From assembly GCF_024347135.1 (NCBI RefSeq), contig NZ_AP024908.1:124001-188000 (forward strand): a stretch of DNA of 64,000 bases, read 5' to 3'. The stretch is from Vibrio spartinae (GTDB lineage Bacteria > Pseudomonadota > Gammaproteobacteria > Enterobacterales > Vibrionaceae). A program made the position numbers and the translations under genes. Under the pieces are notes generated by a model, which did no database searches, had not been told where the DNA came from, and was given only the letters and a program-made list of their open reading frames with translations. The stretch's first letter is position 1; every line of letters begins with the position of its first letter. Positions 12,722-56,574 of the stretch are shown here, one piece after another.

Positions 12722-14368
12722 ATGAATTATTTTAAACATTTGGGGATTCGCTGGAAGTTATGTATTCCATTGATTTTTGTCATGTTATTGGTATTAACAT
12801 TATCGGGCAAGAGTTTGTATTCAGAAGGATTACAGGCTGAAGCGATTACCGTTGTGACCCGCCAAGAAATCCCGGCACTGAGTATGGTGCAGTTAGCCAA
12901 TCGGGATCTGTATCAGGCTTGGGTCGCGGAACGGAGTATGTTGACGTTACCCGTCAAAAGTGAGCAGTATCAACTCATGCAGAAAATGCATGATGAAAGT
13001 ATTACAAACGCCAGTCACAGTATGGAAAAGCTCAAGTCATTTCAGTTGAATGCAGAGATGAAGCAACTGATAGAACAATTCTGGAAGACTTATCCTGAGT
13101 GGGTGAAAGTCACGAAGAGAATTGAACAAGAACGGAGCTCAAACTCCCGGGCCGGGCGCAGTACAGCGATAGGTTTATCGTTCAATGAGGGGTTTGAGTT
13201 ATTTCAAAAGACGCAACATCACCTTGAATTAATTACCGATGTTGTCGCCTTCAACGCTGATGAACGCACGGATAAGTTAGAAGAGATGCATCAAAATTAT
13301 CGTTCAGGTCAGCTGTGGTTAGTTGGTTTCTCTTTGTTTACTTGTTTGGGGATTATCTGGTTTTTCCCATTACTGATTACCGGTGATTTGAAAAACATTA
13401 CACAGCAAATTCAGGCATTGGCGAAAGGGGGCGGTGATTTAACCAAACGGTTGAAATTAGATCGCCGTGATGAATTAGGAGAGCTTGCCACTTATCTGGA
13501 CGAGTTCATGAGTGAACTTCATCATCTCGTGACACAGATTATCAGTAATGCGCAAGAGAACAATGTTCATGTTTCCTCGTTAGGAGAGATGTCACGCAAG
13601 GCCTGTCAGACCGCCGAGAAACAGGTGATTTCTATGCGAGAGGTCTCGGCTTCTAGTCAGGAAATGAATGTTGCTATTCAGGATGTTTCTCTCAGTACAT
13701 CCGAAGTGTCAGATTCTACAGCAAAAGCAGGTCAGTCTGCCAGTGAGGGGGGACAGCAGGTCAGTGCAACCCAGCAGAGTATTGGTTTACTGAATGAAAG
13801 TGTGGAGCAGGCCGTAGCTGCCATTTCTCGCATTGATGATTTCACCAACAAGATTAATTCAGTCTTAACCATTATTAGTGGCATTGCCGAACAGACAAAT
13901 TTGTTGGCCCTGAATGCTGCGATTGAAGCTGCAAGAGCTGGGGATTCCGGGCGTGGCTTCGCTGTGGTTGCCGATGAAGTTCGAGGATTGGCGAATAAAA
14001 CCCAAAGTTGTACTGAAGATGTGAATGAAATGATTACCAATCTAGAGAAGAGTGTGCGAGATGCTGTCCAGATTATGAATCAGGCGACTGAAAGAGCCTC
14101 AGTGACGAAACAAGCGAGTGAGAAAACCCAGCGAGCCATTGATGACATGATGATGTCGATGGATCATGTGACCGAAAGAACCGCGCAAATTGCTGCTGTG
14201 ATTGTCGAGCAGAGTAAGATGGCTAAACATATTCAGGAAGAGATTCATGTGATTGAGGCTCAGTCTCAGGAAAGTGTTGAAGAGTCTTCTGAGGTTGATC
14301 AGGCCTGCCGTAAGCTGGATGAGCTCCATCGACACTTATCTCAGGTACTTGGAAAATTTACCGTATAA
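12722..14368 (+). CDS. Methyl-accepting chemotaxis protein
   Basis: A 548-residue transmembrane chemoreceptor. TM1 is at about residues 12-30, followed by a helical periplasmic sensor of ~155 residues (four-helix-bundle-like, rich in Gln/Glu/Lys). TM2 is near 195-218. A HAMP domain contains [20 protein letters not shown]. The signalling domain has its hairpin tip at [35 protein letters not shown]. The start is the ATG at 12722 with a GGAGGGG site, rather than the TTG just before it. It lies downstream of the solo PDC protein. Ligand unknown. Confidence 0.93.
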
Positions 14369-27089: not shown

Positions 27090-28403
27090 ATGCTTTTTAA
27101 CCGTTCCCTTGTCAAAGAAAATGAAGCCTTAAAAAAAGAGCTTCACATGATCAAACAGATGCAAGACAGCCTTGGCAAAGAAATGTTAACGATGACGCTG
27201 GACTCGAATGGTTTGGTGAGTTCGGTGAATTCGCTTTTTTGTAAAGAAATGAAATACGAGTCACAAAATGTCGAGGGATGTAAACTCACCGACATGGTGC
27301 CACCGAAAGAGCGTTCGACCGGACATTACCAACGCTTAAGTCATGCATTGAAAGACGGTAAGCATTGGAATGGTGCGTTGCAACTGCTGAAAGGGAACAG
27401 TGAAGAATCATGGTTACGGGCGATTTTGCAGCCAATCTACAATATTGATAAGCAGCTGGAATATTTTTTACTTTATGCTTCTGAACTCACCCAAACCATT
27501 CGCGCTTCAAGAGAGCATGAAGATATGATCGCAGCATTGCTGCGTTCGACGGCTGTGATTGAGTTTGATCTTGACGGGCATGTTCTGACAGCAAATGATA
27601 ACTTTCTTCGCGCAACGAGTTATAAAAAAGAAGAAATTGTCGGTAAACATCACCGTATGTTCTGCGAACCTGGACTCTATAATTCTCCTGAATATGAGAG
27701 TTTTTGGCGTGAGCTGAGGAAAGGTAATTTTATCTCGGATCGATTTAAGCGAATCGATAAATATGGGAATACTGTGTGGTTGGAAGCGTCTTATAACCCG
27801 ATTCACAACAACCATGGTGAACTCTATAAAGTTGTTAAATTTGCTTCTGTGATCACAGAACAGATGAATCGGGAAAAGGCCATCTCTGAAGCTGCAAACA
27901 TTGCCTACGAAACATCCCAGTTAACTGATACACAGGCAGCAAAAGCACAGATTGTCATTCAGGATACGATTCAGACCATGGAAGAACTTGAACAGCAGAT
28001 GATTCACGCCTGCCAAGGGATTAAGGATCTGGACGAGCTTTCTAAGAAGGTCAGTGATCTGGTGGGCAACATCAGCGGGATTGCCGATCAAACCAACTTA
28101 CTTGCTTTGAATGCTGCCATTGAGGCAGCCAGAGCCGGTGATCAGGGGCGTGGCTTTGCTGTCGTCGCTGATGAAGTCAGGGAGCTTGCCTTACGCACCA
28201 GCAAAACCACTTCTGAAATTGTGGACGTGGTGTCCAAGAACCAAAAACTGACAGAAAATGCGGTTGGGCTGATTGAAAATGGCCAGCAGAGAGCGAAAGA
28301 CGGGTTGCAGCTTTCGAATGATGCCGGGGTTGTGATGGCAGATATTCAGGATGGGGCGAAAAAAGTCGTGAATGCGATAGAGCAGTTCCATCAGAAACTG
28401 TAA
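27090..28403 (+). CDS. Soluble PAS-domain chemoreceptor
   Basis: A 437-residue cytoplasmic methyl-accepting protein without membrane segments. An N-terminal coiled coil ([17 protein letters not shown]) is followed by two PAS domains, about residues 30-145 and 150-265. The second shows [20 protein letters not shown] and [10 protein letters not shown] short signalling domain follows with the tip [20 protein letters not shown] and [15 protein letters not shown]. The layout recalls BdlA/Aer-like redox or oxygen sensors. The ATG at 27090 has an AGAGG site; an in-frame ATG at 27033 has none and is less likely. Confidence 0.9.
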
Positions 28404-40473: not shown

Positions 40474-42105
40474 ATGATGTTTAGTAATTTTACCATCCGT
40501 ATGCAGCTCGGCCTGTCTTTGGCCTTTTTAACTGCAATCATTGTTTTCTCCGGATTACAAAACCGGGATTCACTGAACCTGCTGGAACGTAATATTCAAC
40601 TATTTGCTGAGCCGCTGAGGAAGGCTCAACGGGATGTGCTCAATGCTGATCGAGATTTGTATCAGGCACTCAAAGGGCAACAAGATGCGCTTCTGACCAC
40701 TGATGAGAAAGTATTGAAGGGCGCACAAGATGATTATCAGGAAAATGCCCAACAGGCTTATGATCGCATGCAAAGCTATTTGGAATATATGGCTGATCAT
40801 CGACACATTATCACACAGTTCGATAATTTTGACCGTGTTTTTCAAGATTGGAAGGCGCAAGCTGATCGGGTATTTTCGCTGATAGAACAAGGTGATAAGA
40901 CACAAGCCCACACACAATTTATCGAGTCTGAGCAATATTTTGGGACACTGCGTCACGAGTATGATAAGGCCGGAGAACTGGTCGATAAGCTAGGCAATGA
41001 ACTCTATGGACAGTCGAGTCACCTTATCGGGCAGCGAATTTTATGGAATATGATGATCTCCCTTATCTCAGTGGTGATTGGGCTGATACTGGTGTTTTTC
41101 ATTCCGAAAGCGATTACGTCTGCGATTTATTCCGTAAAAGATAAGATCGATGATTTGACTCAGGGAGATGGTGATCTGGTGAGTCGTTTGACGGTGAAGA
41201 AAAAAACCGAGTTAGGTTATTTGTCAGGCAGCGTCAATAACTTGCTGGAACAGCTCCAACAACTGGTAAAAAGTGTCATTGATGGGGTTGAGAAACTGGG
41301 TGCGGATACGAGTCACCTTCAGGATGTTGCGAATAAAACTGAAGCGATTGGTCATAATCAGCAACAGCGGCTGGAACTACTGTTTCAAGCATTTGAACAA
41401 ATTAATATTGCAATTCAAGAAATTACGACCAACGCGCAGCATACGTCTTCCAAAAGTGATGAAGCGAGTCGTTCGGCAAGCAATGGGGTGACGTTGGTCG
41501 ATAGAAACGTGACATTGAACGATAAACTGTCAGTGAGTTTTCAAGAAGCCAGCCAGAAGATGTCATCACTTGCTGCAGATTCCGACAATATTACTTCAGT
41601 TCTGGATGTGATCCGTGGTATCGCAGACCAAACCAATTTACTGGCATTGAACGCTGCAATTGAGGCCGCACGAGCCGGCGAGCAAGGGCGCGGTTTTGCG
41701 GTTGTCGCTGATGAAGTGAGAACGCTGGCACAACGGACACAGTCTTCAACCGAAGATATTCAGGAGATGATTTCCAGCCTTGTTAAAGGTGTGAATGAAA
41801 CTCAGGCGGCGATTCAAGGCGGAGAAGAAGCTGTGGCTGAATCGGTGGGAATGGCGGATGAAATGAGATGTGCTTTTCAGGATATCCGTGACTTGATTTC
41901 CACCGTTCAAGATATGAATATTCAGATTGCTGCGGCGACAGAAGAGCAGAGTTCGGTGATTGTTGATGTGAATCAAGGCATCCTTGAGCTGAAAGAACTG
42001 TCTGATAAAGCCACCAATGTCCATCAGCGTGTGGCTGATACCGGTAATGTGGTTGCCGATATTTCGTTGCGACTTTCCGACTTGGTGAGTCAGTTTAAAG
42101 TGTAG
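40474..42105 (+). CDS. Methyl-accepting chemotaxis protein
   Basis: A 543-residue chemoreceptor. TM1 is at residues ~10-26. The periplasmic domain is a ~165-residue helical sensor. TM2 lies near 192-212, then HAMP with [20 protein letters not shown]. The signalling hairpin has [20 protein letters not shown] and [20 protein letters not shown]. An ATGATG start follows an AGGA site. It precedes another receptor in the same direction, but terminators separate them, so they are independent units. Confidence 0.93.
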
Positions 42106-49774: not shown

Positions 49775-50401
49775 TCACAATGTTTTGGCAATCATACTCC
49801 CCGCAGCGGCAAGCATCATGATGCCAGCGCAACGGAAAAGCAGCATCTGAGCATTTTGGCTGGCAAGAAATCGTCGGACTTTCAGGGCCCCCAAAATAAA
49901 GATCGAACCGACTGCGATTAATACAGCAATGGTCAGCGGTACCAGTAACAGTCCCCATGTTTGTACCGAGACCGTATCTAAGGTAATGACCAGCGGTAAG
50001 ATCGCTAAATAGAATGCGATCGTTTTGGGATTACCTAAAGTAATGGTGAAACCGGAAAACCACGCTGAAGTCAGCTCCCGTCTGGAGGTCTTTTGATCAA
50101 TTTGAATACTGTCCGGTTTACAGGTAATGAATTGCCAAGCCAGCCAAGCCAGATAGAGAGAAGACGCCCAACTGATCAGGGTGAATAAGGTACTGAAGTG
50201 ATGCGCGATCACCGCGAGACCGAATACCGCAAATGAAAGGTAGACTAAGTCCCCCAGAATCAACCCAGCCAGCATCGTAAACCCAGTGATTGCGCCGCCA
50301 CTTACGCTCCGAGCCACCAATGCGGTCATTCCGGGACCCGGAATAGCAGCCGCGACGCCTAAGGCTGCAATATAGGCAAATATTTGTGTTGATTCTAGCA
50401 T
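49775..50401 (-). CDS. LysE/RhtB-family amino-acid exporter
   Basis: A 208-residue inner-membrane exporter with about six helices and the family motif AAAIPGPGMTALVARSVSGG near the N-terminus, plus GFTITLGNPKTIAFYLAILP. LysE/RhtB proteins export amino acids and derivatives. It is the last gene of the minus-strand group, 87 nt after the OCD-family gene, and is well placed to export the group's product. Confidence 0.9.
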   Translation of the reverse strand: MLESTQIFAYIAALGVAAAIPGPGMTALVARSVSGGAITGFTMLAGLILGDLVYLSFAVFGLAVIAHHFSTLFTLISWASSLYLAWLAWQFITCKPDSIQIDQKTSRRELTSAWFSGFTITLGNPKTIAFYLAILPLVITLDTVSVQTWGLLLVPLTIAVLIAVGSIFILGALKVRRFLASQNAQMLLFRCAGIMMLAAAGSMIAKTL

Positions 50402-50488
50402 GGTTATTGATCCTACTTATATTGGACAGATTTGATCTGAGTCGTGCTGAAAATGACCATGGTGCAATCGACTCCTTTCGGTTGGATT

Positions 50489-51427
50489 TTATTGATTCTT
50501 ATTCATGACTTCTCTGGCAAAAACAAGGTCTTGAACCGCCAGGCCGACAGATTTGAACAGTGTACGTTCAGGGCGGTTTTCCAGAAGATGTCCGCCTAAT
50601 TCGCCAATTTCTGGACTGACATGATCGGCAGGTAAGTATCCTTTCTCTTGGGCTTGCTGAAGACACTGAGAGGCATTCCAGCATGACTCTCGTGAATCGA
50701 CATAGTGTTCAACCGCCCCATAGATCGCCGGATCTAGCTCTTGGAATCCAATCGCTGATGCGCCAATCGCATTGATATGGCAGCTTTGCGGTAAATCACC
50801 AAGTTGCAGTAATGGGGCCCGGGCTGCGGTGACCGTACAGATAATATCAGCGTCGGAGACCGCTTCGGCTGGGGTTGCTGCAACCGTGATGTTGAGTGCT
50901 GGATGCTTGGCACACCATGTTGCAAACTGATCCACGTTGGTCTGGTCTCTGCCCCAGATTGTAACCTGTTGAATCGGACGGACAGCGAGCATGGCGAGCA
51001 AGTGTTTCCGTGCTTGCAGGCCCGTGCCCAGAATCGCAAGGTGTGTGGCATGTTGTGGTGCAAGTAAATGTGTTGCCCAAGCGGAGGCCGCCGCCGTTCT
51101 TAGCTCGGTGACTGAGCCTGCGTCAACCGCCACCATATGTCCGTTTGTCTGTTCATCAAATAATAGGATGCATCCTTCATGAGAGGCTGAACCTTGGTGT
51201 GGATTAAAATTGACTAAGACAGATTTCAGGCCGAAGCCTGAATATTTGCCCTCGGAGATATAAGCCGGCATCGTTCCCATCAGTCGTCCATCTGGTGCTG
51301 GGATAATACTTCGGACTGACTGCACCACTTTCCCCTGACTTTGCAAAGCAAATGCCGTTTGACTTAACTCAATGGCAAGAGGGATGGATAGGGTTTGTTC
51401 AACATCTGCTCGATTAAAGTAATGCAT
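50489..51427 (-). CDS. Ornithine cyclodeaminase/mu-crystallin family oxidoreductase
   Basis: A 312-residue NAD(P)-dependent enzyme of the OCD/mu-crystallin family, which includes ornithine cyclodeaminase, ketimine reductases, alanine dehydrogenase and the siderophore enzyme SbnB. The substrate Arg/Lys region (FGLKSVLVNF, GSVTELRTAAASA) and dinucleotide loop LAILGTGLQARKHLLAM are intact, as are INAIGASAIGFQELD and the C-terminal GLAVQDLVFA. In this setting it could reduce an imine or oxo-acid intermediate rather than cyclise ornithine. It starts 9 nt after the AhpD-like gene. Confidence 0.88.
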   Translation of the reverse strand: MHYFNRADVEQTLSIPLAIELSQTAFALQSQGKVVQSVRSIIPAPDGRLMGTMPAYISEGKYSGFGLKSVLVNFNPHQGSASHEGCILLFDEQTNGHMVAVDAGSVTELRTAAASAWATHLLAPQHATHLAILGTGLQARKHLLAMLAVRPIQQVTIWGRDQTNVDQFATWCAKHPALNITVAATPAEAVSDADIICTVTAARAPLLQLGDLPQSCHINAIGASAIGFQELDPAIYGAVEHYVDSRESCWNASQCLQQAQEKGYLPADHVSPEIGELGGHLLENRPERTLFKSVGLAVQDLVFAREVMNKNQ

Positions 51428-51436
51428 ACAATCACC

Positions 51437-51982
51437 TCATGCCTCAACCGTATCCATGAATTGCGGTTCAACCGGTGTGTCTGCCAAGCTATTGAGTAAA
51501 GTTGACATGGTTTTCTGGGAGATACCTAAAATAACATCAAGCATATTTTGTTGTGTGAAGCCAACTGCTAAAAAATGGTGTGCTTTATCTTTAGGAATTG
51601 AGCCCTGAGAGAGAATCACTGCTTGCGTAAATTGGTGAAGTGCGGCTAATCGTGTCGGGAGTTGTTCAGGATGATGAATCATTTTATCGACAATATCACT
51701 TGCGACACCATTGTGAATGGCAATCCAGTAATGTGCTTTAATCGTATAAGGGCATTGGTTAATCACACCGGTTGTGAGCCAGACCACTGCTTTCTCTGTT
51801 TCGTTCAGGGAGCATTGTGAAAATCGGTCATGCGCAAACTGATAAGAAGCCAGCAGATCGGGGGATTCAGCCATGTACGCACTTTGGTTGGGGATCCATC
51901 CGAAATTATCAATCGAACTTTGCAAAAGCTTACGGCTGCCATCCGGTGCACTGTCAATCGTGTGTAATTTCATCTCTATCAT
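51437..51982 (-). CDS. AhpD/carboxymuconolactone-decarboxylase-like protein, CxxC incomplete
   Basis: A 181-residue all-helical protein of the AhpD-like superfamily. The core helix normally carries a CxxCxxxH redox motif; here it is INQCPYTIKAH, so Cys77 and His84 remain but the second Cys is Thr80. Classic disulfide peroxidase chemistry is therefore unlikely. A catalytic or binding role using Cys77 and His84 is possible. The start has only a weak ribosome site (AAGAGAAAA). Placed between the prephenate decarboxylase and the OCD-family gene. Confidence 0.8.
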   Translation of the reverse strand: MIEMKLHTIDSAPDGSRKLLQSSIDNFGWIPNQSAYMAESPDLLASYQFAHDRFSQCSLNETEKAVVWLTTGVINQCPYTIKAHYWIAIHNGVASDIVDKMIHHPEQLPTRLAALHQFTQAVILSQGSIPKDKAHHFLAVGFTQQNMLDVILGISQKTMSTLLNSLADTPVEPQFMDTVEA

Positions 51983-52057
51983 TTTTCTCTTTTCCTTTCT
52001 TTTCTTTGTTCTTCTTTACGAATCTATTGATGGCGAAACATGTGAATGGGCCGCATT

Positions 52058-52642
52058 TTATGCCGAAGTCTTGCACCCAAATACAGACCACAACATATGG
52101 ATGGGGCGGACATTGGATATAAACGATAAATTGTGCAGACCTGCTGCAATTTCTGTCGTTAAGGCAATATCGGCTTCATGTTGAGTGACAGCATTGGCGG
52201 CTTCACTGGTTGAATTCTTTTCAATAATGGTTTCTATCTGCAAACCTTGAGGAAGTAATTCATTAATTAATGGTATCGGTGCAGGATGAGATGCAATCTT
52301 CAGTGGCCGACGTGGTAATGAACGATTGGTTGCAATTCCGTATAAAGGCGTATCAAAAACAAATGTTGCTAACAGATTCAAATGAGAGTCCATGTAGAAA
52401 TCATTAATTTTTTGATAGGCATTGGCAACAATCAATAACCCATTGTCTTGTTTGGTATGATCACGCGCCAGCTCATAGGTTTCATTCAGATTGATGATAT
52501 TCAAACTGTCAGAATAGAATTCTCTCATCCGCTTACAAAAATATTTTGAAGCGAATTCACTGCTTGTCCCCGGTGGGCCTAATGTATAAACAGGGTGACA
52601 TGTCGCATGCACAAGTCCCATGTCCATAAAATTCATGTTCAT
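52058..52642 (-). CDS. bacA: BacA-type prephenate decarboxylase
   Basis: A 194-residue cytoplasmic protein. It aligns along its whole length with bacilysin BacA (~204 aa): YTLGPPGTSSEFASKYF (residues 19-35), DFYM (81-84), FDTPLYGIA (96-104), ASHPAPIPLI (117-126), IALTTEIA (159-166), MLWSVFG (183-189). BacA removes CO2 and rearranges prephenate without aromatising it, giving dihydro-4-hydroxyphenylpyruvate. The catalytic Thr-Arg-Phe motif of true prephenate dehydratases is absent and no regulatory ACT domain follows, so it is not PheA. GGAGA site 9 nt upstream. This is the key enzyme of the locus. Confidence 0.9.
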   Translation of the reverse strand: MNMNFMDMGLVHATCHPVYTLGPPGTSSEFASKYFCKRMREFYSDSLNIINLNETYELARDHTKQDNGLLIVANAYQKINDFYMDSHLNLLATFVFDTPLYGIATNRSLPRRPLKIASHPAPIPLINELLPQGLQIETIIEKNSTSEAANAVTQHEADIALTTEIAAGLHNLSFISNVRPIHMLWSVFGCKTSA

Positions 52643-52666
52643 TTGTCTATCTCTCCATGATAAGCA

Positions 52667-53641
52667 TCAATTCACACTCGTTAACCACTGTTGAAACTGA
52701 TTCAGTTGTCCTCGAACCGACTTGATATACAAACGTTGAATTTCTGAGGTGATACTGTGGGGTTCAGCACTATTGAAATAACAGTGATCAATCTGCGTTA
52801 CGGGGGAAACTTCCATCCCGGTCCCGGTCAGGAAGCACTCATTCGCAGCAAAGAGCTCGGATGGTGAAATATCTCTCTCTTCAACTTCAAGCCCTAACTC
52901 TTCTGTCGCCAAGGTCATGACTGTGCTTCTTGTAATCCCTTCGAGAATGTGAGAATTAATCGCTGGTGTGATGAGTTTATTTTTCTTGACTAAGAAAACA
53001 TTCGATGTCGTTGCTTCTGCAATATTGCCGTGAACGTTGAGCATGATGGCATCGTCATATCCAGCGCGATACGCTGACTCCATGGCGAGTGCTGAGTTGA
53101 TATAGCTCCCCGTTATCTTTGCGCGTGCCGGAATCGAGTTATCGGCAACCCTTCTCCAGTTTGAAATCGTACAGCGAAGACTTTTCTGAGCTGATACCGA
53201 AGGCATGTTTAAACTATTAATCGCAAGTCCTGAGCTGACACCGGAGAGTTTGACGCCAAATCCCTGCCCGGGGAGGAGACTCTTTTTAAAAGCAATCGGC
53301 CGGATATAACAATCCGTACTTGCCTGATTTTTTCTTAGCAGCTCAAGAATAATTTCTTTCATTTCCTGATGAGACGGCAAGTGATCAAGCAACAGCAGTT
53401 TGGCAGAATTGATGAACCGTTCGATATGCGCATCTAATTGGAAAACATTCAAGGTGTGCTTATCTTCAGTGAGATAAGCGCGAATCCCTTCAAAGACGCC
53501 GGTCCCATAATTAAATGCCTGCGTTGTAATTGGAATCGACGCTTCCGCTGCCGGTCGATATTCATTGTCGAGATAGATAAAAGGGTGATGGACACCTGAG
53601 TGATGTTGCTGAGGATTCATTTCAGTCGTGGTATCGGTCAT
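52667..53641 (-). CDS. Class IV (branched-chain-type) aminotransferase
   Basis: A 324-residue PLP enzyme of fold type IV, like IlvE. Key blocks: FNYGTGVFEGIRAY, the Schiff-base Lys in RAKITGSYINSALA, the Glu that binds the PLP nitrogen in NIAEATTSNVFLV, and FLTGTGMEVSPVTQI. The start overlaps the stop of the ligase gene (TAATG), so the two are translationally coupled. Being next to a prephenate decarboxylase it probably aminates the dihydro-aryl oxo acid rather than branched-chain oxo acids. Bacilysin uses a different aminotransferase fold (BacF, type I). Confidence 0.92.
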   Translation of the reverse strand: MTDTTTEMNPQQHHSGVHHPFIYLDNEYRPAAEASIPITTQAFNYGTGVFEGIRAYLTEDKHTLNVFQLDAHIERFINSAKLLLLDHLPSHQEMKEIILELLRKNQASTDCYIRPIAFKKSLLPGQGFGVKLSGVSSGLAINSLNMPSVSAQKSLRCTISNWRRVADNSIPARAKITGSYINSALAMESAYRAGYDDAIMLNVHGNIAEATTSNVFLVKKNKLITPAINSHILEGITRSTVMTLATEELGLEVEERDISPSELFAANECFLTGTGMEVSPVTQIDHCYFNSAEPHSITSEIQRLYIKSVRGQLNQFQQWLTSVN

Positions 53642-55050
53642 TATTGAAACCCCTGTCCTAACAGCGCAATGGCTGCATCGCGATCAGCGTTATCACCTTG
53701 TGCTCTTAAATCATGTAGTCTGGCTGCTTTCCAACTGACCATGGCAGATGTACTGGTAATATTGGTGGTTTCACCGGCCTGAATATTGATCTCAACATGT
53801 TTGATTCGGTCTGCCATATAAGCTTTGGTTTGCGCGAGCATGACGGCTTGTTGCGGGACGTCTTCGATTAACTCAACAATAATATTTAAGTGATCGATAC
53901 CATTTTTTTCATCAATCTGAATGGCATAGTCTAAACAGCCTGTCAGTTTTTCTAACAGAGCAGCCTCAATATCCCACGCGCAGTAGTTGCAGCCACCTAA
54001 AGTTAGTGTGTCCCGGACGCGACCAATCGGAACAATCTTCAGCCGACCGTCAGGCATCAGTGTTGCTCTGACCATATCACCAGTGCGGTAGCGAATCAGC
54101 GGTTTCTGTCCCTGATATAAATGAGTAATTACCAATTCACCGCTGGTTTCCGTTGCGGAAGCAGGAATAACGTCACCACTGATCGGATCGACTAACTCAT
54201 AGTAGTTATTCATTGGGACAGTATAGAGTGATTGGTCACTGTCACAGACAGCCAAAATAGACGATTCCTGAGAGGCGTACATACAATTGTATACTTGGGC
54301 TCCCCATGTTTCACCGATATTACGCAGCAAAGCGGGTGTGGTGAGTTCGCCTAATGTCAGAATGACCCGCACACTACTTTTTGCCGGGGACACATGATTT
54401 TTCTTCAGGTATCGGGCGAGATTGATCGCCACTGCGGGTGTACACACGAGCGCTGTAATTTGTAACTCATTGATGAGTGCCATCGCACGGTTCATGCCGA
54501 CAACGGGAGAGCGAGGCCACATTTTGACCACACTGTGGCCTAAACTGCGGAATACATCTTCAAATGTATCGCCTGTCGAGTGCAACTCGGTCGGACCCAT
54601 CACGCCAACAATATGTTTGTCACCATGCTGTTGAAAAATTTGCCCGTAGCGGAGAATCAGTGGCGTATTATTATAAATTGAGTCAAGTTCATTCCGGGGG
54701 CATGGCGTAGGGGCACCGGTCGTGCCTGTCGTTTCGTAGTATACCCAACTTTTATCGAGTGATGCCGAGGCTAGGCGGTTTCTATTTTCACGGAGATCAT
54801 TCTTGGTGGTAAATGGTAATGTGTTCAACGTAGAAAGAGAAAACTTATCAATATCTGACGCCGTGATTCCTGATAAATGTTTTTTATAAAAACCAGAACC
54901 ATTGATAACATATTTTAGAACGTCTTTAAGCTTATTTTCTTGATGATGAATGAGTTGTTGGTGAGAATATTCGCCATTTTCAAATTTTTTATGTTGTTGG
55001 AAAATATATTTTGCTTGCTTGACTAATTCATCTTTAAAAATCGCATACAT
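53641..55050 (-). CDS. PaaK-like adenylate-forming enzyme (aryl/acyl-CoA ligase family)
   Basis: A 469-residue adenylating enzyme of the phenylacetate-CoA ligase branch. All core motifs are present: phosphate loop YETTGTTGAPT (about residues 106-116), the adenine-site YASQES, the ribose-binding YRTGDMV, hinge GRVRDTLTLGGCNY, and a C-terminal Lys in VSWKAARL. It could adenylate an acid and pass it to CoA or an amine. No carrier protein or condensation domain is nearby, which argues for a CoA ester or amide product. The ATG at 55050 follows AAGGAA by 7 nt; the TTG at 55068 precedes that site. Confidence 0.88.
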   Translation of the reverse strand: MYAIFKDELVKQAKYIFQQHKKFENGEYSHQQLIHHQENKLKDVLKYVINGSGFYKKHLSGITASDIDKFSLSTLNTLPFTTKNDLRENRNRLASASLDKSWVYYETTGTTGAPTPCPRNELDSIYNNTPLILRYGQIFQQHGDKHIVGVMGPTELHSTGDTFEDVFRSLGHSVVKMWPRSPVVGMNRAMALINELQITALVCTPAVAINLARYLKKNHVSPAKSSVRVILTLGELTTPALLRNIGETWGAQVYNCMYASQESSILAVCDSDQSLYTVPMNNYYELVDPISGDVIPASATETSGELVITHLYQGQKPLIRYRTGDMVRATLMPDGRLKIVPIGRVRDTLTLGGCNYCAWDIEAALLEKLTGCLDYAIQIDEKNGIDHLNIIVELIEDVPQQAVMLAQTKAYMADRIKHVEINIQAGETTNITSTSAMVSWKAARLHDLRAQGDNADRDAAIALLGQGFQ

Positions 55051-55113
55051 GAGATTTTCCTTAATCAATTCTCTATGTGTGTAATTGTTGGAGGTTATTG
55101 AATCTCTGGTTGT

Positions 55114-55536
55114 TTATTTAAATAACGGCAGATTTCCCGTGAGTTTATTGATGATTTTTTTCGGACCAATCATACCAATGGCGACTAATTCAATATGTTG
55201 ACTGGTTACCGATGATATTCTTTCTCCATATTCATCATACGTTTTACATGACTGGGCCAGTGCACTAAAAGGCATGGTATAAATCTGATCATTTTGTTCA
55301 GCGGTGGCAAGCAGGCTTTGTATATGTTCTCCTGTCGAGAGTAACACGGGAAGTGGCGAGTATATGACACCCGGGTAATTCACATTATCCATGCTTTGCA
55401 TGTCAGGGCCGACGAGATTATTGACTGTTTTACCAAAGCTGATTCCAATCACACTTGCTGCATTAATTGCTAAACCCGGATGTAAATCTTGATCGACAAT
55501 AATGGTACATTTGTGCTTGCTTGCATCAAACTCCAT
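55114..55536 (-). CDS. DUF2000 family protein
   Basis: A 140-residue protein with the DUF2000 pattern: KCTIIVDQDLHPGLAINAAS, VIGISFGKTVNNLVGPDMQS, PGVIYSPLPVL, and the C-terminal IGMIGPKKIINKLTGNLPLF. The family has a peptidyl-tRNA-hydrolase-2-like fold with no established activity. The start at 55536 has a GAGG site 6 nt upstream and leads directly into the conserved region; the frame extends another 33 codons without one. It lies 63 nt before the ligase gene. Confidence 0.85.
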   Translation of the reverse strand: MEFDASKHKCTIIVDQDLHPGLAINAASVIGISFGKTVNNLVGPDMQSMDNVNYPGVIYSPLPVLLSTGEHIQSLLATAEQNDQIYTMPFSALAQSCKTYDEYGERISSVTSQHIELVAIGMIGPKKIINKLTGNLPLFK

Positions 55537-55564
55537 GAATTCCTCACTTATTTTTAAATTGTAT

Positions 55565-55909
55565 TTACAAGGTGGATAATAAATCCAGATATCCGGTGGC
55601 CAGAGAAAAATCGGTAGATAAATCGATATCAACAATATTCCATTCGGCTATCGCTTTCCATTTTTCAACACCTTCTCTATGATTTGGGTGGTCGATATAT
55701 TTTTCCAATTCGTCGGTGTTATTGAATATTCCAATAACAATAAAGTCAGCAGCAATTTCTCGGCGGGATATATTGCGGCCACATATCCATCCTTTTATTT
55801 CCTCAATATGACGAGGGTGATTACGTGTTGCTTGTTCTGCCTCGATTGCATTGGTGGAAGACCAACTCCAGTTCTTTTTAAAAGTAAATAGCACGACATG
55901 TAGAATCAT
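55565..55909 (-). CDS. Dabb-domain (stress-responsive alpha/beta barrel) protein
   Basis: A 114-residue dimeric alpha/beta-barrel type protein: MILHVVLFTFKKNW at the start, RNISRREIAADFIVIGIFNN and YIDHPNHREGVEKWK are the family's typical strands and helix. Dabb and related ferredoxin-like barrels include polyketide cyclases such as olivetolic acid cyclase. The ATG at 55909 follows AAGGA by 9 nt. First gene of the eight-gene minus-strand group, divergent from the Lrp regulator. Confidence 0.82.
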   Translation of the reverse strand: MILHVVLFTFKKNWSWSSTNAIEAEQATRNHPRHIEEIKGWICGRNISRREIAADFIVIGIFNNTDELEKYIDHPNHREGVEKWKAIAEWNIVDIDLSTDFSLATGYLDLLSTL

Positions 55910-56046
55910 TGAATTCCATCCTTGGTGAATCATTGTTCTTGGTGAATGTGATGAACTGTAATTATGTTTTGACGTTGTTGTTGCTGTCCATTATGCATCA
56001 GAATGATAGAAATTTGTTACCTATATCACGTTAGGGGCAATGGTTG

Positions 56047-56064
56047 TAGGGCAAAATTACCCTA
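56047..56064. promoter_or_regulatory. Candidate Lrp-type operator
   Basis: An 18-bp near palindrome: TAGGG, 8-bp A/T-rich centre, CCCTA. It lies between the divergent Dabb gene and the Lrp-family gene, 33 bp before the latter's start. A related GGGGCAA occurs 15 bp upstream. This is a natural place for the regulator to control itself and the operon. Confidence 0.5.
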
Positions 56065-56097
56065 TAAATGGCAAAAAAATGAAAGGATTTGACCTCA

Positions 56098-56574
56098 GTG
56101 GCACTAACAAAGACAGATATTCAAATTTTGACCTTGTTACAACAAGATGCACGGATGACCAATCAGGAGCTGGCCGATCAAATCGGCATGTCATCGTCAC
56201 CCTGCTGGCGCAAAGTTCGTAAGTTGGAAGAAGATGAAATCATCCAAGGATACCGTGCGGTTCTGGATCGGAAAAAAATAGGCATGGGTGTGATGGTTTT
56301 CGTACGGGTGAGTATTGATAGCCACAGTGAAGCCGAAGCGCGCAAATTTGAGCAAGAAGTGACAGCACTTGAGAATGTTGTTGCCTGTTACAGTATTGGC
56401 GGGGATGCTGACTTCTTGATTCAGGTTGTCTCCCATGATCTCGATTCCTATGCGGAATTTGCAATGTCAGTGATTCGGCGTTTGCCGGGCATTAAAGAGA
56501 TGCAGAGTATGTTTGTTTTAAAGGAGATCAAACCCTTTGCTTCTCTGCCCGTCGAAACCGTATCCGGCGCGTAA
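56098..56574 (+). CDS. Lrp/AsnC-family regulator
   Basis: A 158-residue Lrp-type regulator. The helix-turn-helix is DARMTNQELADQIGMSSSPC followed by WRKVRKLEEDEIIQGYRAVL. The RAM ligand-binding domain has VVACYSIGGDADFLIQVVSH and the C-terminal FVLKEIKPF. Such proteins sense amino acids. The GTG at 56098 is preferred because AAGGA lies 10 nt before it, whereas the TTG at 56089 is only 1 nt from that site. Divergent from the BacA operon and probably its regulator. Confidence 0.9.
   Translation: MALTKTDIQILTLLQQDARMTNQELADQIGMSSSPCWRKVRKLEEDEIIQGYRAVLDRKKIGMGVMVFVRVSIDSHSEAEARKFEQEVTALENVVACYSIGGDADFLIQVVSHDLDSYAEFAMSVIRRLPGIKEMQSMFVLKEIKPFASLPVETVSGA

Follow-up and report, generated by a model that had tools for sequence, protein, structure and literature searches.

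L-2,5-Dihydrophenylalanine has been isolated from Erwinia amylovora. In Photorhabdus, plu3042–3044 were reportedly found necessary in the knock-outs of Crawford et al. (2011), Plu3043 being the decarboxylase and Plu3042 the transaminase that lead to 2,5-dihydrotyrosine. If this gene set is right, the third gene presumably encodes an AhpD-like protein, whichever direction the locus tags run. To our knowledge, the later steps of dihydrophenylalanine biosynthesis are unassigned. For Photorhabdus luminescens, a passage of the review PMC5897657 describes the route to dihydrophenylalanine as conversion of prephenate by a non-aromatising decarboxylase and then a transaminase. The synthesis of dihydrophenylalanine in E. 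amylovora and E. pyrifoliae is the subject of another paper, by its title in a reference list. In an excerpt of PMC2866466, SalX of the salinosporamide pathway is a prephenate-dehydratase homologue that feeds a partly reduced phenylalanine analogue. In this study, a stretch of 64,000 nucleotides (nt) of Vibrio spartinae (contig NZ_AP024908.1, positions 124,001 to 188,000; hereafter the window) was analyzed, which carries an eight-gene operon with a gene for a BacA-type protein. The literature search gave no paper on this operon among the matches listed, beyond the passage of PMC5897657; most subscription papers were outside the search, so this is no proof of absence. The stravidin paper PMC13336041 contains amiclenomycin and does not mention prephenate.

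The operon was predicted to make and export a dihydro-aromatic amino acid. The most likely candidates are 2,5-dihydrophenylalanine and 2,5-dihydrotyrosine, a near precursor of it. As a whole, with hydroxyl removal, Lrp control and protection by DUF2000 included, this proposal is considered probable. The window operon is most likely the Vibrio version of the Photorhabdus operon, because the same eight genes occur in the same order in nine Photorhabdus loci, and the decarboxylase and transaminase route was reported for that genus. A dihydro-aromatic amino acid had been named as the likely product in an earlier note on this DNA; with the same operon in Photorhabdus and the route reported there, this was judged to be probably right.

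The eight genes lie on the minus strand at 49775–55909, divergent from an Lrp gene. All eight are open, and all nine open reading frames (ORFs) lie where the earlier note placed them (Table 1). The starts of Dabb and DUF2000 were taken at the internal ATGs (55909 and 55536); the ORF list has longer frames for both. The gap is 28 nt between Dabb and DUF2000 and 45 nt between DUF2000 and the PaaK-like ligase (63 nt with the ATG start of PaaK). PaaK and the class IV aminotransferase (AT4) overlap by 1 nt, and the remaining gaps are 24 nt (AT4–BacA), 75 nt (BacA–AhpD), 9 nt (AhpD–OCD) and 87 nt (OCD–LysE). Coordinates, order and gaps (−1 to 87 nt) were the same as in the earlier note, and Pfam and NCBIfam agreed with its gene names. 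The ratio of non-synonymous to synonymous substitution rates (dN/dS) was 0.013–0.143 for all eight genes, each compared with three close relatives, Vibrio ruber (L004), Vibrio sp. MEBiC08052 (L005) and L087, in which the flanks of the operon are colinear. By this comparison, all eight genes are under purifying selection. Since gene set and order also recur in 22 of 85 loci, the operon is more than a chance arrangement. Promoter and terminator scans of the operon gave no excess, at or below the shuffle level, and say nothing either way.

Table 1. Operon genes, divergent regulator gene and intergenic element, in window positions.
Feature	Position	Strand	Basis or remark
Lrp/AsnC-family regulator	56089..56574	+	Pfam AsnC_trans_reg 70 bits; divergent from operon
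Conserved intergenic element ATATAGGTAACAAATTTC, candidate regulator site	56009..56026	-	conservation among intergenic regions
Dabb protein, 114 aa, first gene; partner of BacA	55565..55909	-	Pfam PF07876 60 bits
DUF2000 protein, 140 aa, PTH2-like fold; proposed self-protection gene	55114..55536	-	Pfam DUF2000 112 bits
PaaK-like adenylate-forming ligase	53641..55068	-	AMP-binding 40 bits; TTG start in ORF list, ATG 55050 more likely
Class IV (IlvE-type) aminotransferase (AT4)	52667..53641	-	Pfam Aminotran_4 179 bits
BacA-type prephenate decarboxylase (predicted), 194 aa	52058..52642	-	profile, tree, motif
AhpD/CMD-like protein	51437..51982	-	Pfam PF02627 (CMD/AhpD) 27 bits; CPYT where AhpD has CxxC
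OCD/mu-crystallin-family reductase, ketimine-reductase-like	50489..51427	-	Pfam OCD_Mu_crystall 186 bits
LysE-family amino-acid exporter, last gene	49775..50401	-	Pfam LysE 81 bits

The BacA-type protein has a single domain, with no ACT match in the Pfam search. Its best Pfam match was PDT over residues 19–176 (24.1 bits, below the cut-off of 25.2), PBP_like and Sigma54_activ_2 matched more weakly and far below their cut-offs, and the only NCBIfam match was prephenate dehydratase. The best Pfam match and the NCBIfam match would suit an ACT-less prephenate dehydratase giving phenylpyruvate, in which case the operon would only supply phenylalanine. Several observations make this very improbable. 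Besides the PDT score below the cut-off, the BacA-type rows of the tree (77 rows) were split with 100/100 support from two dehydratases of the window genome, which have very long branches; known ACT-less dehydratases were left out of this tree. In place of the Glu in PIEN, a dehydratase motif, 71 of 75 BacA-type rows have Ala, including the window, which reads VANAY here, and the other 4 have Pro. PheA is encoded elsewhere in the genome, on contig 1. Prephenate dehydratase was rejected on score, tree and motif. Because of the low PDT score, the separate tree position, the loss of Glu from PIEN and the PheA gene elsewhere, the identification as a BacA-type prephenate decarboxylase, and not a prephenate dehydratase, is well supported by sequence comparison. 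The assignment to the BacA type in the earlier note was thus borne out, and the grouping with dehydratases that would have spoken against it was not seen for the two included. By sequence, the best match among solved structures had an E-value of 0.72, which is chance level. The window BacA fell in a gammaproteobacterial clade of eight-gene operons (98/90), together with E. amylovora BacA (60% identical); the Bacillus and Photorhabdus proteins fell outside it. The window genome also has a stand-alone second prephenate dehydratase besides PheA, on contig 2 (G000:C2:304844-305398).

The distribution of the operon was investigated with a one-genome-per-species scan, in which 80 of 119 relatives were kept. 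The tally covers 85 of 94 loci; L001–L003, L084–L086 and L088–L090, from the window's own and two related genomes, were left out (L003 is the divergent G021 gene), and genes other than BacC, Lrp and CM2 were tallied by type. Type A has all eight genes in the same order and comprises 22 loci (nine Photorhabdus; two of the 22 on plasmids) in Vibrio, Photobacterium, Acerihabitans, Pantoea, Pseudomonas, Vreelandella, Thiopseudomonas and Photorhabdus. Type B (15 loci, Actinomycetota and Chitiniphilus) has Dabb, DUF2000, PaaK, AT4, BacA and OCD. Type C (12 loci) has Dabb, PaaK, AT4, BacA and OCD with PhzF and DUF1330, without DUF2000. Type D (10 loci and L078) has BacA, DUF2000, an FGE-like protein and a molybdopterin oxidoreductase; the short contig of L078 shows no oxidoreductase, and an exporter was found in 9 of these 11 loci. 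Type E comprises seven Bacillus loci with BacB and BacD, and the remaining 18 loci have smaller or mixed gene sets. The core of Dabb, PaaK, AT4, BacA and OCD, common to types A, B and C and also found in Actinomycetota, is complete in 54 of the 60 loci with PaaK. A chorismate-mutase-like gene matched in 8 of the 85 loci. The operon is rare among relatives: the BacA-like protein matched in 3 of 148, of which one is the genome of the window itself and another has only a weakly matching, divergent gene; a search with the Erwinia protein matched 1 of 369 genomes of the class, the window's own only. When E. coli genomes were searched with 3.9 kb of the Pantoea operon, none matched.

These results show that the neighbouring genes are linked to BacA in relatives, as the earlier note would require. 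Its description of the operon as undescribed was too strong, and the operon is not specific to Vibrio. The homologous first enzyme would also be expected of a bacilysin- or anticapsin-type pathway with substituted enzymes. Such a pathway is scarcely credible: BacB or BacD matched in none of the 22 type A loci, as had been stated for these partners from the window, and Bacillus BacA lies elsewhere in the tree. The bacilysin variant was rejected on this gene content.

Further loci were noted in the scan. A complete eight-gene operon with divergent Lrp is present on plasmid pNY8709-IMP of Pseudomonas aeruginosa, a blood isolate (L092). The type D cassettes, a second kind of BacA cassette, are L038, L051, L053, L061, L063, L066, L075, L079, L080 and L083, mostly with an amino-acid exporter. 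In a same-genus relative (L098:5356-8999), an Lrp gene stands divergent to a set made up of a dehydratase-like gene (231 aa, PDT 27.8 bits) and FGE-like, molybdopterin-oxidoreductase-like, DUF2000 and LysE genes. This is the type D cassette combined with the kind of regulator and exporter seen in the eight-gene operon. On a plasmid of Streptomyces sp. NBC_01022 (L094, type C), the five-gene core with PhzF and DUF1330 lies between non-ribosomal peptide synthetase and polyketide synthase genes, an arrangement as for an amino-acid building block.

In the proposed pathway, BacA would decarboxylate prephenate without aromatising it, as its family and tree position suggest, and the class IV transaminase would then give 2,5-dihydrotyrosine, in line with the transaminase step reported for Photorhabdus. 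AT4 exceeds the NCBIfam cut-offs of PRK06606 and TIGR01122; the genome has four such genes, AT4 included. Since conversion of dihydrotyrosine to dihydrophenylalanine needs net reductive loss of a hydroxyl, PaaK, OCD and Dabb are candidates for the deoxygenation. The ring hydroxyl may be removed by some of these, plus AhpD in this variant; conceivably, the ligase would drive acylation of the hydroxyl, and an NAD(P)H-dependent step would then displace it. The later steps had been left without assignment before, and this was judged right.

In PaaK, the P-loop T113–G118 and the C-terminal lysine 447 (numbering from TTG) are conserved across at least 97% of 57 rows. The nearest solved relatives of OCD are 4bv8 (thiomorpholine-carboxylate dehydrogenase) and 2i99 (mu-crystallin), and at least 97% of 53 rows share its residues R39, K68 and R110. 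The AhpD-like protein, with 6e8l and 3lvy as nearest solved chains, has lost the second Cys of CxxC and lacks this redox pair; C77, T80 and H84 are present in 20 of 20 rows. In Thiopseudomonas (L013, one genome), AhpD-like protein and BacA share one ORF. Dabb occurs in 63 of the 85 BacA loci, and a PHROGs search gave no match for Dabb or DUF2000. A Dabb gene also stands at the end of a bacilysin-like BacA-cupin-SDR (short-chain dehydrogenase/reductase) cluster on a plasmid of Streptomyces sp. ADI95-16 (L093), so Dabb may act on a common early intermediate.

The same early steps could lead to another exported product, a new compound, if PaaK activates the amino or keto acid for coupling or if OCD reduces an imine. 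The near-complete co-occurrence of the core, three members of which (PaaK, OCD and Dabb) still lack a function, is consistent with this, as are the resemblance of OCD to ketimine reductase and the NCBIfam match of PaaK to BagE/FevW, at 54 bits far below the cut-off of 800. PaaK-like ligases that couple, instead of making CoA esters, exist. However, LysE exporters usually carry simple amino acids, and Photorhabdus with the same gene order was reported as a dihydrophenylalanine producer. A different product is therefore regarded as a tentative possibility.

Under the proposal of a dihydro-aromatic amino acid, LysE would export the product, a reading of the earlier note that was judged right, and the divergent Lrp-type protein would regulate the operon. 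LysE is present in all 22 loci that carry AhpD. A divergent Lrp gene accompanies all 13 type A loci outside Photorhabdus and none of the 9 within it. The element ATATAGGTAACAAATTTC is identical or nearly so in the intergenic regions of Vibrio, Photobacterium, Acerihabitans and Pantoea, and was not seen in those of Pseudomonas and Vreelandella. It has one exact copy genome-wide, and matches with up to 3 mismatches were about equal to the control (7 versus 5). Scoring of the intergenic region with the Lrp consensus gave nothing, and the palindrome pattern gave 3 matches versus 6.8 expected. The element is a candidate regulator site by its conservation.

DUF2000 and LysE are proposed to protect the producer, DUF2000 perhaps by hydrolysis of tRNA mischarged with the product; the earlier note had suggested no function for DUF2000. 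This role was proposed because of the exporter association, the intact state of DUF2000 in decayed loci, neighbours for unusual amino acids, and the fold of PTH2 (peptidyl-tRNA hydrolase 2), which the DUF2000 protein shares. An amino-acid exporter was found at 45 of 52 DUF2000-positive BacA loci versus 0 of 33 DUF2000-negative ones; the exporter queries were taken from DUF2000-positive loci, which biases this comparison toward the association. By a crude count of membrane segments, 18 of the 33 DUF2000-negative loci have no ORF with at least 5 segments and 15 have at least one (seven Bacillus, L093 and seven with PaaK). Among these, only the ABC permease of L094 and the MFS transporter of L093 were named, so further exporters may be present. 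Only four independent pairs were left on supported branches of the tree, 3.7 in the same direction and 0 in the opposite one (p 0.125).

The first idea for DUF2000 was a BacA-specific isomerase, acting on the BacA product in place of the cupin BacB or a PhzF-type protein. Among the 85 loci, DUF2000 (52) never occurs together with BacB (8) or PhzF (15), as would be expected of such a replacement; these exclusions may reflect lineage. Against a pathway enzyme, DUF2000 is intact where pathway genes have decayed or been lost (L082, L173), it occurs without BacA in two AraC-LysE-DUF2000 units and adjoining two PF10014 dioxygenase genes, and it has a tRNA-hydrolase fold. After the decayed loci and other contexts, the isomerase was dropped as the preferred role and kept as a rather unlikely alternative. 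A second synthetase as self-resistance was ruled out, with only one pheS match in the genome.

Other observations concern DUF2000 genes elsewhere. PTH2 genes were found in 0 of 249 genomes of Pseudomonadota. Around DUF2000 in L101 and L102, where integron-type repeats were sought, there was no direct repeat of at least 30 bases. Two more DUF2000 genes (L099 and L100, same genome) are each divergent from a PF10014 dioxygenase gene with an adjoining pyridoxal-phosphate enzyme; these are possible operons for hydroxylated amino acids. At L110:1909-6677, DUF2000 occurs with a Haem_oxygenas_2 protein, an L-amino-acid-ligase-like ATP-grasp protein, a PALP enzyme and an Lrp match, which looks like another small amino-acid or dipeptide operon.

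Several points weigh against the proposed product and the protective role of DUF2000. The product was predicted from genes, the final product could differ from dihydrophenylalanine, and the steps after transamination have no assigned enzyme. At the position of the dehydratase TRF threonine, Thr is found in 44 of 75 BacA rows and Val in the window, within an uncertain C-terminal alignment. Photorhabdus BacA is only about 50% identical to that of the window and has its own clade, the whole operon could not be demonstrated in E. amylovora, and AhpD is absent at actinobacterial loci. The role of DUF2000 stands on context and fold: the PTH2 profile PF01981 matched 0 of 30 DUF2000 members at E-values up to 1, so the likeness is at the fold level only. 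In relatives, 9 of 16 DUF2000 genes showed no neighbour of the kinds named above (L103–L106 were screened with our own queries, without Pfam), and LysE was beside DUF2000 in 0 of 29 cases in a phylum sample.

The operon belongs to a described kind, and its interest is in the genes without an assigned role. The comparison gives a shortlist of five genes kept from Vibrio to Streptomyces, with AhpD as an extra in the gammaproteobacterial form and DUF2000 behaving like an immunity gene. This shortlist makes the pathway testable gene by gene. If DUF2000 does clear tRNA, a widespread family of unknown function would gain a role, and its genes could be used to find more operons for unusual amino acids. 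The boldest combination, which we consider doubtful, is that DUF2000 is a PTH2-fold trans-editing family, often paired with exporters, that deacylates tRNA mischarged with non-protein amino acids of the cell or its neighbours, and at the same time that Dabb, PaaK and OCD perform a new, non-aromatising removal of the hydroxyl from dihydrotyrosine. Elsewhere in the window, a dispersed repeat of about 105–140 bases (13878–13983, 28060–28199 and 41602–41718) is 74–80% alike to one stretch in relatives' loci.

In Streptomyces cattleya, FthC is the exporter partner of FthB. An excerpt of PMC11295145 describes FthB of this fluorothreonine producer as a deacylase that clears tRNA charged with its own amino acid. 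The likeness to the proposal for DUF2000 is in the idea only: FthB is related to ProXp-ST1, not to DUF2000 or PTH2, and the activity of DUF2000 is a proposal. SalX, set beside the operon by description and not by sequence, is similar as a prephenate-dehydratase homologue in a pathway to a partly reduced phenylalanine analogue. The Bacillus bac loci have a homologous first enzyme (38–41% identical at seven loci). They differ in the other seven operon genes, found at 0 of 7 loci, and at L067 BacA is accompanied by a cupin, an SDR, an ATP-grasp ligase and a class I/II aminotransferase. Compared with the Photorhabdus operon, identity is about 45–61% per protein, the Photorhabdus loci have no Lrp gene, and the Vibrio operon is known here from its genes; the eight genes and their order are nevertheless the same in nine genomes, and the decarboxylase and transaminase genes are adjacent.

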